From NCBI GenBank assembly GCA_937902925.1, contig CALFNN010000103.1:1-64000 (forward strand): a stretch of DNA of 64,000 bases. Direction: 5' to 3'. The DNA comes from an uncultured Opitutaceae bacterium. GTDB taxonomy: Bacteria; Verrucomicrobiota; Verrucomicrobiia; Opitutales; Opitutaceae. The notes below the pieces were generated by a model, which searched no databases, was not told the origin of the DNA, and saw nothing but the letters and a program-made list of their open reading frames with translations. Made by a program: the position numbers and the translations under genes. The first letter of the stretch is position 1, and every line of letters starts with the position of its first letter. Positions 43-8,888 of this stretch are shown here, in pieces.

Positions 43-572
43 CGAGGTAGGGATTATCCCGAATAGGCCCCCTTTGTGAAACAGCAGATTTCGGCGGCTT
101 ACATCCTGTCCGCGGGCTCGGCCGGAGTGACCTTTGACGCGCTTTGACTCTTGTTGATCGAGGCAGTGACAGATCAATGCTCGGTGAGAAGCACCCCGGT
201 GCGGCGCAAAATCCGAACTACCGAGCGATCGTTTAATGCGGCCTTACGCAGCGTGGCTTACTCATCAACGGGATGCGTGAGCGTTAAACGATCGGCGAGG
301 AGTTCGGGTATCCTGCTGGCCGGGGTGCTCAAAAATCTGCTGCGACGTTCAGTTTGGGTCCCGTCTAAGTGTCCGAAGATTTCGAGATCGGACTTGGCGC
401 GATGAGATCGTGCGCGAGAAAAATTAAACGTTTAACGCAATTCTCGACCCCGGTGCGAAGATTTCGCGAACTTTCTCGTGTTTCGTTTAACGCGGATGAT
501 CGCGTAATCGCTTCGTATCCACTGAATCGCGCAAAAACACCAAATCGACGGATCTGGTGCTAATGGTCGGGC
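43..572. repeat. Long noncoding direct repeat, copy 1, ending at a tRNA-Pro-like att core
   Basis: About 530 bp that recur almost unchanged at 5377-5906. The stretch from about 121 to 417 is identical in both copies; the few differences fall before position 120 and after 417. It contains a 12-bp palindrome (TTAAACGTTTAA, 424-435), several CGTTTAACGC-like motifs (229-239, 281-291 inverted, 429-438, 484-493), a duplicated ACCCCGGTGCG (193-203 and 447-457), and an imperfect hairpin at 227-293. It ends in AATGGTCGGGC (562-572), the reverse complement of the tRNA-Pro 3' end. No convincing protein gene is present. It is read as the conserved end of an integrated element, though a structured RNA is possible. 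Confidence 0.85.
562..572. other. Putative attachment core at the end of repeat copy 1
   Basis: The 11-bp AATGGTCGGGC matches both the attL site at 5896-5906 and the 3' terminus of the tRNA-Pro gene at 8810-8820. Here it lies exactly where the similarity between the two long repeats stops. A further inverted CGTTTAACG motif lies on the other side at 664-673. It is interpreted as a residual integration junction. The short length makes this inference rather than proof. Confidence 0.5.
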
Positions 573-845
573 CGGCACGTTTGATCAACGAACTTTAGTG
601 GTGCTTATTTTCCTGGCGTCCTTGAATTTCGAGAGGAAAAGCGGTCTACCCGGCGGCGAGAAACCGTTAAACGCGGAGCGAATGAACCGGTCGATGCGCG
701 AGGCGAATTGACTATTCTCTCGATTTTTAAGCACCAATTGCATCAATTCTCCACGGAGAGCGCGGCAATTCAAACGCCGGATGCTCGTGCCCAATACCTT
801 GGTTTCCGGCACAGGCCCCCGCAGGTCGTTTCCCGTGCCGGTGGG

Positions 846-1439
846 TCACAGGCAGTGCTGCGCCAAGTGCCGCTGATAGTCTTCGAGCGAGCGCGGGATG
901 TCGGGGGCGTGCTTGAAGATATCGAAGGCCCCGTAGTCCGGGAGGATGTCGTAGCCGCAAAATTTGTAGTTGGCCGTGATAGCGAGGAACAAGTCGGCCG
1001 TTCTTTTGCCACCCATCAAGACGCCATTGGGATTGTCGAAGGCGCCTCGCGGCGCATTCCACGTCGCGGAGATCATGAACTTCCGGCCCTGCATCTTGCC
1101 ACCCGTGCCGTATTGCCGACCCGGATCCGAGCGGGTGCGGCCGTCGCCTTCGAGGAAGACTTTGGTGGCGAGGCCGGCATTGAAGACCTCGTCCACGTAT
1201 TTCTTATAGATCCATGGCGCCCCGAACCAGTTCACCGGCGTCTGGAGGATGACGAGGTCCGCCGTCATGTGTTTTGCGACCTCTTCCTCGGGCTTGTAGC
1301 CGCGCTCGACAAAGGTCTCGGCGACCTGGTGCCCGCGCTCGGTGAAGAACGCCTTCGCCACGTCCATGAAGGTTTGGTTCAGTTTACCCTCGGACCAGCC
1401 GGGATAGGTGAGGTGCGTATTGATGATGAGTAGGTTCAT
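846..1439 (-). CDS. mdaB: MdaB-type NADPH:quinone oxidoreductase
   Basis: A soluble flavoprotein of 197 aa expected to reduce quinones by two electrons with NADPH and FAD, protecting against quinone and oxidative stress. The flavodoxin-like fold is visible: an N-terminal beta strand MNLLIIN, the flavin-binding segment QTPVNWFGAP (66-75), SDGRTR-like EGDGRTRSD near 97-105, YGTGG (110-114) and TWNAP (126-130). Length and motifs match E. coli MdaB (193 aa) closely. It lies 66 bp downstream of an AraC-family regulator on the same strand, which probably controls it. Both sit between the two long repeats and may be cargo of an integrated element. Confidence 0.9.
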   Translation of the reverse strand: MNLLIINTHLTYPGWSEGKLNQTFMDVAKAFFTERGHQVAETFVERGYKPEEEVAKHMTADLVILQTPVNWFGAPWIYKKYVDEVFNAGLATKVFLEGDGRTRSDPGRQYGTGGKMQGRKFMISATWNAPRGAFDNPNGVLMGGKRTADLFLAITANYKFCGYDILPDYGAFDIFKHAPDIPRSLEDYQRHLAQHCL

Positions 1440-1505
1440 TGGATTCGTTGGATTAAGTTAAAGCAGTAGCTGGCCCGCATGAGGGCGGTGAAATGTGCCG
1501 GGGTG

Positions 1506-2558
1506 TCAGCGTCGATGTGTCCGGCGGTGTTGGTGGGCGGCCCGCCATTCGGCGGGCGTCTTGCCTTCCCACGAGCGGAAGGCGCGGTAGAATGAAGTCG
1601 GATCCTCGAAGCCAACGAGGAAGGCCGCCTCGTTGATTTCGACCGACGGATCGCCGAGGTATTGCCGGACCAATTCGTGACGAGTGTCGGTGAGCAGTTG
1701 CCGGAACGTGGTGCCTTCGTCGGTGATACGGCGCTGGAGCGTGCGATCACTCATTCCCAGTTCCTTGGCGACCATGAGCAGGTCAGGGCGGCTGCCGGAC
1801 AGCAGGCGCTTCAGGACCCATTTCACTTGGTCGAGGATGCCCTGCTTCGCGCGGCCCGCCTTGAGTTGATTTTCAAACTGCGGCGCGAGCATTTGCAGGA
1901 GCTCGTCGTTGTGCGTGGCGAAGGGAAGTTCCACGTCGGCGGTGCGCAGCACCAGCACATCTCGGGTGGCGCGATATTTTACCGGGCAGCCAAAGTATTC
2001 CGCGAAACCATTGTCTCGTTCGGCTTGCCGCGTGAGTTCGATGCGCTTGGGGTTCAGCCTCGTCTTCGTGCCACGGCGGCCGAGTTCCAGCACGAGTGCG
2101 AACACCGCATCGAGCAAGAACGCTGGCGCCGGCTCCTTTTCGGCAAAAGGCCACGAAACCTCGACGAGGACCTCATCGCCCTTGGTGCTGATCTGAAATT
2201 CCTCGGCGCTGCAAAGCTGTTTGTAGCGCGCCAGTCGCTCGATGGATTCGCGATAGGTGCGGGCGTGCAGGGCGGCGAGGAGCGTCGGGTGATACTGGTC
2301 GGTCCCAACCTGACTCATGAATTTCCAGCCCATCGCGGGATCGCCGGCCAACTCGCGAATGGCCCGCCAGACTGCGAAGTTTTGCGCCGTGGTCACGAAG
2401 CTCTCACCGTTGTAGACGGTGGGCGGCAAGTTGCTGCGACGAAGGACGGCACCCGGAGTGAGGCCGATGGATTTTAGTCCGGCCCAGAAGACACCCGGTA
2501 GCTTGATGCGATCCTGCGCGTTGCCACTGACGTGGAATTGATCGGTTTGGGCTTTCAT
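1506..2558 (-). CDS. AraC-family transcriptional regulator
   Basis: A DNA-binding regulator of 350 aa. The N-terminal two thirds resemble the arabinose-binding-like sensor domain found in OruR/VirS-type AraC proteins (VFWAGLKSIGL, then a GW.F..Q.G segment). The C-terminal AraC DNA-binding domain has two helix-turn-helices: one around residues 262-278 (KELGMSDRTLQRRI) and a second around 307-340 (INEAAFLVGFEDPTSFYRAF). The start at 2558 was preferred to upstream codons because the conserved domain begins just after it. The gene lies directly upstream of mdaB, so it is probably the regulator of that reductase. The inducer cannot be read from the sequence. Confidence 0.85.
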   Translation of the reverse strand: MKAQTDQFHVSGNAQDRIKLPGVFWAGLKSIGLTPGAVLRRSNLPPTVYNGESFVTTAQNFAVWRAIRELAGDPAMGWKFMSQVGTDQYHPTLLAALHARTYRESIERLARYKQLCSAEEFQISTKGDEVLVEVSWPFAEKEPAPAFLLDAVFALVLELGRRGTKTRLNPKRIELTRQAERDNGFAEYFGCPVKYRATRDVLVLRTADVELPFATHNDELLQMLAPQFENQLKAGRAKQGILDQVKWVLKRLLSGSRPDLLMVAKELGMSDRTLQRRITDEGTTFRQLLTDTRHELVRQYLGDPSVEINEAAFLVGFEDPTSFYRAFRSWEGKTPAEWRAAHQHRRTHRR

Positions 2559-2829
2559 GGGCGGTCGTTTGTTTGTTGGGCGAGCCAATCGTGAGCACAG
2601 CCTACCGCAAAAAACGGCGTCTGTAATTAGCAGAACGCGCCAATCGACTTGCAGAAGGCGCCATTCATAACGCTCAGCGGAAACGACGGTCGAGGCTCGA
2701 CCTGAGTCCTGTGCCAAAAGACACCATCAGCGGCACGGCCAATTTTGCCGGGAAGGCGGTCGGAAGGCGGAAAAACCCGCATGCCCGTCCCGATTAGGTT
2801 CGTTTTTGGACCGATCGTGGGCTGAAGAT

Positions 2830-8591: not shown

Positions 8592-8641
8592 CTCGCAGTC
8601 TCGGTGCCGTCGTGCCGTGGCAATGTATGCCGAAGCGATGC

Positions 8642-8677
8642 GGCACTCATTTGGGCACTCAAACGGGCACTCAAACG
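8642..8677 (+). repeat. Right arm-type repeats (three 12-bp units)
   Basis: Three perfectly abutting 12-bp units: GGCACTCATTTG (8642-8653), GGCACTCAAACG (8654-8665) and GGCACTCAAACG (8666-8677). They match the two units at 5983-6006 in sequence and orientation and lie about 130 bp inside attR. This supports their reading as arm-type recombinase sites. Confidence 0.65.
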
Positions 8678-8809
8678 GGGGTCGCGGGGGGGCCAAGCGA
8701 GTCGCACGCAGGCGCGACCGAGTGCGACAGAATAATCTTGCAAGTCCCGCTGCGTATCGCAATTAGTCGCACACTGACGCAGTGAGTCATCGTTCTGCGT
8801 CGGGGGTTA

Positions 8810-8834
8810 AATGGTCGGGCTGGTGAGATTCGAA
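8810..8834. other. attR within tRNA-Pro
   Basis: The 25-bp segment covering the tRNA 3' end, acceptor strand and T-arm matches attL (5896-5920) with a single G/T difference. The element thus regenerates an intact tRNA on integration. Confidence 0.8.
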
Positions 8835-8888
8835 CTCACGACCTCTTGCACCCCATGCAAGCGCGCTACCAGGCTACGCTACAGCCCG
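8812..8888 (-). tRNA. tRNA-Pro (anticodon GGG)
   Basis: A 77-nt cloverleaf on the minus strand with a 7-bp acceptor stem (CGGGCTG with CAGCCCG), discriminator A, encoded CCA, a GTTCGAATC T-loop and an anticodon stem CTTGC/GCAAG around the loop ATGGGGT. The anticodon GGG reads proline CCC codons. The overall form closely follows bacterial tRNA-Pro(GGG). Its 3' end is the integration target of the adjoining element. The 282 bases between it and the next gene at 9171 show no supportable feature. Confidence 0.95.

Follow-up and report, generated by a model that had tools for sequence, protein, structure and literature searches.

At the 3' end of a tRNA-Pro(ggg) gene of an uncultured Opitutaceae bacterium we find a stack of small units, two of which have both non-coding ends in common, carry unrelated cargo and contain no recognised recombinase. 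The stack occupies the beginning of contig CALFNN010000103.1 (C103), whose first 64,000 nucleotides (C103:1-64000) are the stretch analysed here and are called the window, and it appears to continue on a second contig, C1, of the same draft assembly (6.0 Mb, 105 contigs). The stacking of units at tRNA-Pro is well supported. The array would be composed of two units (int1 and int2) with an excisionase and a tyrosine integrase, the int2 frame being broken, and of two units without recombinase (cassettes C and B), in each of which cargo would be held between a left end (LE) and a right end (RE) and bounded by a tRNA-derived core of an attachment (att) site. In our opinion the cassettes were probably inserted at this core by a tyrosine recombinase provided by another element. 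The target, the att sites and the cassette ends in the window are:

8812..8888, - strand: tRNA-Pro(ggg), intact, the target gene (ARAGORN; RF00005)
562..572, + strand: att core between cassettes C and B, exact AATGGTCGGGC
5896..5925, + strand: att site between cassette B and the int1 unit, 28 of 30 bases as in the tRNA-Pro 3' end, core exact at 5896
8810..8820, + strand: att core at the tRNA-Pro 3' end, exact AATGGTCGGGC
43..572, + strand: RE, right end of cassette C, non-coding, 98% identical to 5374-5906
5374..5906, + strand: RE, right end of cassette B, 98% identical to 43-572
562..800, + strand: LE, left end of cassette B, non-coding, 239 bp, 100% identical to C1:40033-40271

The core AATGGTCGGGC is the 3' end of tRNA-Pro(ggg) with two further bases. 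When one mismatch was allowed, it matched the window 7 times, as compared with a mean of 1.83 and a largest value of 5 in shuffled sequences, and the whole assembly holds 6 exact copies against 3 for the reversed pattern used as control. These copies lie at window 562, 5896 and 8810, at C1:40033 (2.3 kb short of the C1 end) and once each in contigs C37 and C83, where 8 kb of surrounding sequence showed no similarity to the first 9.5 kb of the window. Four cores are thus found within about 11 kb of joined sequence, and copies of the tRNA 3' end recur between cassettes; at 562 and C1:40033 the likeness to the tRNA is the 11-base core with little beyond it. Left of int2, a search of C1:24000-42312 with up to one mismatch found no core other than C1:40033, while the first 11 bases of tRNA-Pro gave in the same region one site with a single mismatch, at C1:31056 within a giant gene. 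A perfect 16-base inverted repeat (5897-5912 and 5922-5937) overlaps the left att site of the int1 unit. This repeat mimics the acceptor-T-arm hairpin of the tRNA, with -36 kcal/mol in a 61-base stretch, and the same folding comparison gave no comparable hairpin at core 562 or at the core copies of five relatives.

At E ≤0.001 RE has two matches in the 6.0-Mb assembly, each flush with the core, and LE likewise two, each starting at the core. From base 56 on, the RE copies differ at 11 of 519 aligned positions, with weaker similarity running left to about base 14, and the identity of LE breaks sharply at base 800. The original prediction, made from the letters of the window, had described two near-identical 530-bp repeats ending at one core and three att-like junctions, and both descriptions hold; the second LE was missed because its copy (C1:40033-40271) lies outside the window. 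The tandem units of 5.3 and 2.9 kb bounded by tRNA-Pro sequence were likewise borne out, and to them is added a second recombinase-less unit, most of which also lies beyond the window.

This second unit is cassette C, which spans C1:40044-42257 and window 1-572. The last 55 bases of C1, which ends at 42312, are an exact copy of the window start, and a 32-base piece of this overlap, searched with up to three mismatches, was met in two places only, the C1 end and the window start. An exact overlap of 55 bases is typical of neighbouring pieces of an assembly graph, which C1 and the window presumably are, and joining them completes a second LE-cargo-RE unit; the same overlap also hints at a branch of the graph at the join. 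Within each contig the order of parts is read directly, and over the join the stack would run int2 unit, core, cassette C, core, cassette B, core, int1 unit, core with tRNA-Pro, where cassette C measures 2786 bp, cassette B 5334 bp and the int1 unit 2914 bp. Cassette C consists of LE, a polysaccharide-lyase gene and RE, and cassette B of LE, mdaB, araC, partner, sigma and RE. The guanine plus cytosine content is lower in all parts of the array (52-63%: int2 59, LE 52, lyase 63, RE 53-54, mdaB 60, araC 62, sigma with partner 60, int1 unit 58%) than in the flanks (66.9% in window 9000-20000, 66.1% in window 20000-64000 and 65.9% in C1:24000-36800), and the array units are probably of foreign origin.

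If the units were inserted one after another at a single core, the flush position of LE and RE beside it and the differing cargo are both accounted for. In a circular form of the cassette the two ends would join with the core inside, so that RE, core and LE would meet as a region of about 0.77 kb with the sequence of window 43-800. In either orientation CGTTTAACG occurs in RE-core-LE at 282, 429 and 484, then follows the core at 562, and then CGTTTAACG again at 665. Seven exact copies in either orientation were counted in the 64-kb window, all of them within cassette ends, as compared with a mean of 0.36 and a largest value of 2 in 100 first-order Markov sequences. Repeats of such layout are usually read as integrase arm sites; this naming, the layout of phage-type attachment (attP) regions and, beyond the passages cited below, the logic of accretion belong to general knowledge. 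The CGTTTAACG repeats are thus candidate arm sites, and RE-core-LE would resemble an attP region with repeated binding sites. Each cassette would have been integrated at the core by a recombinase acting in trans, or excised together with its neighbour, and repeated insertion at the one core would have built the stack. Movement of the cassettes, whether in trans or in cis, is deduced here from sequence.

The ends were also searched for beyond this genome. From base 130 on, RE and LE gave a single match in 252 genomes of the family, with the two best candidates of each genome scored (G189, 34 bases, E 8e-4), and this match was taken as chance. Among the matches listed in the family-genome search with the ends, 18 short weak ones (E 8.9e-4 to 0.0099) lay outside the set of the dispersed element M1 described below; five of these were inspected and lay in unlike GC-rich sequence, and the 18 were not counted as relatives. 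Outside M1 no relative of RE or LE was found among plasmids or phages. An 18-mer of the RE-core junction was met at five loci of unrelated taxa in a scan of genome contigs, where about 7 were estimated by chance, and at one locus in a scan of viral contigs.

In the window, the int1 unit holds the following features:

6490..6708, + strand: AlpA/Xis-like excisionase (HTH_17, 32.7 bits; phrog_66 excisionase)
6705..7805, + strand: tyrosine integrase int1 (Phage_integrase, 65.2 bits; phrog_1)
7872..8591, + strand: protein of unknown family (open reading frame; no Pfam, PHROG or NCBIfam match)
8654..8676, + strand: GGCACTCAAAC twice, at the right end of the unit, with a third copy at 5983 at the left end; candidate integrase arm sites

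The int1 unit has the pattern of a tyrosine-integrase element at a tRNA, since it encodes an integrase and an excisionase and is flanked on either side by the tRNA 3' end as a direct repeat. The int2 unit, left of the core at C1:40033, encodes an excisionase-integrase pair 53-57% identical to the proteins of the int1 unit (the int1 integrase query used in this comparison began 35 codons before its likely start), and the right ends of the two units are alike, with 68% over 183 bp. The int2 integrase (C1:38750-39854, locus L023) occupies two frames, and the break, close to a stretch of C, may be real or a sequencing error. In the same locus, between the oxidoreductase gene and int2, a 38-base integrase-like fragment with 92% identity to int1 (C1:38121-38158) is likely a relic of an older unit.

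The int1, int2 and G025 units carry the repeat GGCACWCAAAC, which is absent from the cassette ends even when one mismatch is allowed; among relatives of int1 it is found twice in G025, once with a mismatch in G042 and not in G015, and is therefore not general in the family. Conversely, CGTTTAACG has no exact copy in the int1 or int2 unit, the copies near these integrases belonging to adjoining cassette ends, and between the cassette ends and the ends of the two units no similarity beyond the core was detected. The original prediction had proposed, besides the stacking, that the elements are trans-mobilised or satellites; that part keeps the standing of a suggestion, and as each side lacks the repeat of the other, the obvious helper is in doubt. 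If the arm-site reading is right, the core would be common to cassettes and resident integrases while the arms would differ, and the genome may lack the true helper.

The cargo gives no sign of a recombinase of its own. In the window it comprises:

846..1439, - strand: mdaB-like NAD(P)H oxidoreductase, cassette B (Flavodoxin_2, 88.5 bits; NCBIfam matches all below cut-off)
1506..2558, - strand: AraC-type regulator, cassette B (Arabinose_bd and HTH_18; start chosen by eye, open reading frame to 2717)
2830..3687, - strand: sigma partner with a hydrophobic N-terminus by eye, cassette B (open reading frame, no Pfam family)
3684..5246, - strand: extracytoplasmic function (ECF) sigma factor with a long C-terminal part, cassette B (Sigma70 r2/r4; TIGR02937, 85.5 bits)

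The name mdaB-like is the label of the original prediction, the Pfam family here being Flavodoxin_2; its calls of this gene, of AraC, of the ECF sigma factor and of the tyrosine integrase all fit the families found. The cargo of cassette C is a protein of 608 amino acids whose C-terminal domain is heparinase II/III-like (Hepar_II_III_C, 37 bits), and the sigma partner shows 26% identity to a sigma-factor protein in L064, in the C-terminal half of the latter. In Pfam the five cargo genes are thus flavodoxin-like, AraC, sigma and heparinase-type, with one unmatched, and none is a recombinase or relaxase; their frames are open. Six window proteins compared with PHROGs gave integrase, excisionase and sigma-type matches. 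No phage-satellite genes acting on a helper phage were found in this comparison, in which matches of head or lysis type were only weak (terminase small subunit, E 0.005, for the excisionase; spanin, E 0.009, for the partner); AraC and the lyase were judged by their Pfam families, outside the PHROG scan, and these families are not phage-directed.

The inner boundary of RE lies within M1, a dispersed non-coding element of about 110 bp with conserved blocks, which contains the first ~95 bp of RE. It was searched for with a model (R1) built from six M1 copies, both window copies included:

1..93, + strand: M1 copy 1, 3' part, at the cargo/RE boundary of cassette C, starting in C1 (R1 model, 87.5 bits)
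5316..5426, + strand: M1 copy 2, at the cargo/RE boundary of cassette B (R1 model, 107.8 bits)

The 5' part of copy 1 at the C1 end scores 44.7 bits. In both cassettes M1 forms a seam, its 5' half differing between them and its 3' half being nearly the same. At E ≤1e-3 there are 49 matches in 21 of the 252 family genomes, this genome included; further places are C64:3972, C70:29849 and C90:12736 of G000 and loci L065-L094. The original prediction would have been contradicted by the repeat occurring at unrelated loci without the core, and this is so for M1, not clearly for the rest, which has weak short matches only; the whole 530 bp as a dispersed repeat was accordingly rejected, M1 alone being clearly dispersed. 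As an element bound to tRNA genes M1 was rejected as well, a tRNA lying in the flanks (up to 1.5 kb) of 1 of 30 loci, two of the 30 being the window copies, from which tRNA-Pro is farther away. Roughly 305 bp separate the M1 copy at L067:1120-1195 (G169:C76) from the 3' end of a tRNA-Met, the same geometry as that of RE at tRNA-Pro. M1 was likewise rejected as a structured RNA and judged improbable as an integron attC site: six copies gave 9 weak pairs and RNAalifold gave 0 pairs with 30; Rfam returned only the tRNA and one sub-threshold match lying on it, with no family in the M1 copies searched. In other genomes, partial likeness to M1 at a very weak level (12 bits, E 1.3) was seen shortly upstream of M1 at L061:7986-8057 and L064:8581-8630.

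The same tRNA gene was compared in 23 stretches from 22 genomes, all of other genera; a broader comparison of 94 relatives also held none of the same genus. Of six relatives of int1, three are placed at tRNA-Pro(ggg) (G025, G042 and G015) and three at tRNA-Gly(gcc). On the 3' side of tRNA-Pro, units in G042 and G034 are closed off by a copy of its 3' end (at 2033 and 3102 bp respectively), further copies lie at short distance in G001 (147 bp) and G033 (692 bp), and in G025 the core copy is on another contig; matches on the other side of the tRNA (G006, G025 and G030) were treated as chance. No relative had the gene order of the array without its repeats: the five cargo proteins gave no match at E ≤1e-5 in any of the 23 stretches, four of which (G015, G017, G022 and G030) show less than 3 kb on the 3' side. 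In the flanks, ligA lies on the 3' side of the tRNA (in G025, of the core copy) in 10 of the 12 stretches with a ligA match, and on the 5' side in G023, in G036 and in the present genome. The oxidoreductase gene is on the 5' side in G006, G018, G024, G030 and G042, and here beyond the array on the 3' side; the comparison does not include a 33% oxidoreductase match of G005, which lies 8 kb from the tRNA. Because these sides are swapped with respect to most relatives, the array with its tRNA appears inverted against its flanks, unless the assembly or the join is wrong; the coordinates concerned are C1:36845-38329, window 8812-8888 (tRNA-Pro) and window 13676-15889.

Several points weigh against the insertion of cassettes by a recombinase acting in trans. 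The order of the units hangs on the joining of two contigs and on an assembly that is a draft and contains repeats, and the apparent inversion weighs somewhat against trusting that assembly. The core common to the cassettes is only 11 bases long. Outside M1, LE and RE have no clear relative in the 252 family genomes, the best two candidates per genome having been scored, and no parent element of the ends was seen in them under the same limit. As the cassette ends lack GGCACWCAAAC, the integrases of int1 and int2 need not recognise them. Among 15 integrase-family matches in the genome, 13 of them over the Pfam cut-off, the 13 besides int1 and int2 have neither exact CGTTTAACG nor exact GGCACWCAAAC in flanks of up to 1.5 kb. 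No excised circle, same-species empty site or helper was seen. A false join or a false duplication created by repeats would account for the beginning of the window at a contig end inside M1 and RE, with an exact overlap like that of a graph branch, but the repeat copies differ and the cargo on their inner side is unique. A single contig crosses RE-core-LE and RE-core-integrase unbroken, with RE copies that differ, so a pure artefact is quite improbable. An ordinary dispersed repeat standing beside a tRNA by chance is hardly credible and is refuted for this genome, since only M1 is clearly dispersed, while the remainder of RE and the whole of LE were found in the array alone and always at the core.

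Of biological alternatives, the cassettes may be immobile relics of once autonomous elements that each lost their recombinase, in the manner of decay described for cis-mobilisable elements (CIMEs), and are now fixed, which we consider possible though not probable. The broken frame of int2 and the persisting integrase fragment in C1 fit such decay, as do, in RE bases 417-572, six substitutions of copy 2 against copy 1, in each of which copy 2 has A or T, together with an additional A; the open cargo frames do not, and the complete identity of LE and near identity of RE suggest instead recent spread or ongoing exchange. It is unlikely that a resident element was duplicated and received new cargo by homologous recombination at M1, although this is a serious alternative for the way in which identical ends acquired different genes. 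The identity of RE does fall off inside this dispersed element, and a very weak M1 match at chance level (9.0 bits, E 6.3) lies at the LE boundary of cassette C (C1:40249-40294), yet the identity of LE ends sharply with no M1 match near base 800 of the window even at E ≤10, and site-specific insertion explains both flush ends without extra steps. Insertion at the core by a recombinase from elsewhere stays our preferred explanation. In its furthest form, which we think rather unlikely, the cassettes would be a family of minimal interchangeable units with a fixed attP region of about 0.77 kb and its own arm sites (CGTTTAACG) around any cargo; a tyrosine recombinase that differs from the resident integrases but shares their core would move them in trans, with M1 as the point of cargo exchange.

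The kind of structure is already known from cis-mobilisable elements, additive islands and the ssrA islands of Dehalococcoides. Elements that have lost their integration genes can retain att sites and form tandem accretions with others that bear an integrase, and CIMEs resemble the present cassettes in being bounded by att sites, in lacking genes for integration or transfer and in being stacked with integrase units where a target gene has its 3' end (PMC5704250). Here, cassettes C and B are delimited by the cores at C1:40033, 562 and 5896 as attL- and attR-type sites, and Pfam gave no integration or transfer gene among the five cargo genes; unlike CIMEs, the two cassettes have the same non-coding sequence at either end (239 and 530 bp) around unrelated cargo, and no parent element was found. 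The multiple tandem islands at Dehalococcoides ssrA are likewise bounded by repeats of an RNA gene 3' end, and 15 of 31 lack an integration module and were suggested to be cis-mobilisable, but as described there they use serine recombinases, a transfer-messenger RNA target and 20-bp repeats with a short flanking motif, not long common ends (PMC3146451).

Additive islands of Alteromonas grow by cassettes at a tRNA (PMC4119200), and Methylopumilus islands hold recurring copies of the last 20 bases of the tRNA (PMC10872708). The array shares with them the tRNA as cassette target and the copies of its 3' end between cassettes; those islands were defined by comparing strains, whereas the relatives compared here are of other genera. 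Tycheposons also have a tRNA border and a tyrosine recombinase with cargo, but are reported as 4-200 kb long, whereas the present units are small and two lack a recombinase (PMC10872708). Hitchers of the type of clusters of attC sites lacking integrases (CALINs) and of miniature inverted-repeat transposable elements (MITEs) are also non-autonomous and expected to use the enzyme of another element, but the present cassettes are bounded by the tRNA core and not by attC sites or transposase ends (PMC11389934). In the comparison with integrons, for which no attC-specific model was used, the M1 copies have no common fold and the outer boundaries are the tRNA cores. The near-identical ends of about 0.77 kb around unrelated cargo are a variant of the known kind and an unusually clear example of it. 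A limited literature search, mostly by title and thus weak evidence, gave no publication that treats such arrays in this bacterial group.

Genomic islands without a recombinase are numerous, and little is understood of their movement. Same ends with different cargo beside integrases of the same target offer a compact setting for asking whether a tyrosine recombinase can move foreign cassettes in trans and which features of the ends it would read. A family of interchangeable cassettes, if true, would amount to a MITE-like or cassette-like use of tRNA integration, and should the ends prove to be a fixed attP module, they could serve as a probe for further cassettes in this bacterial family.

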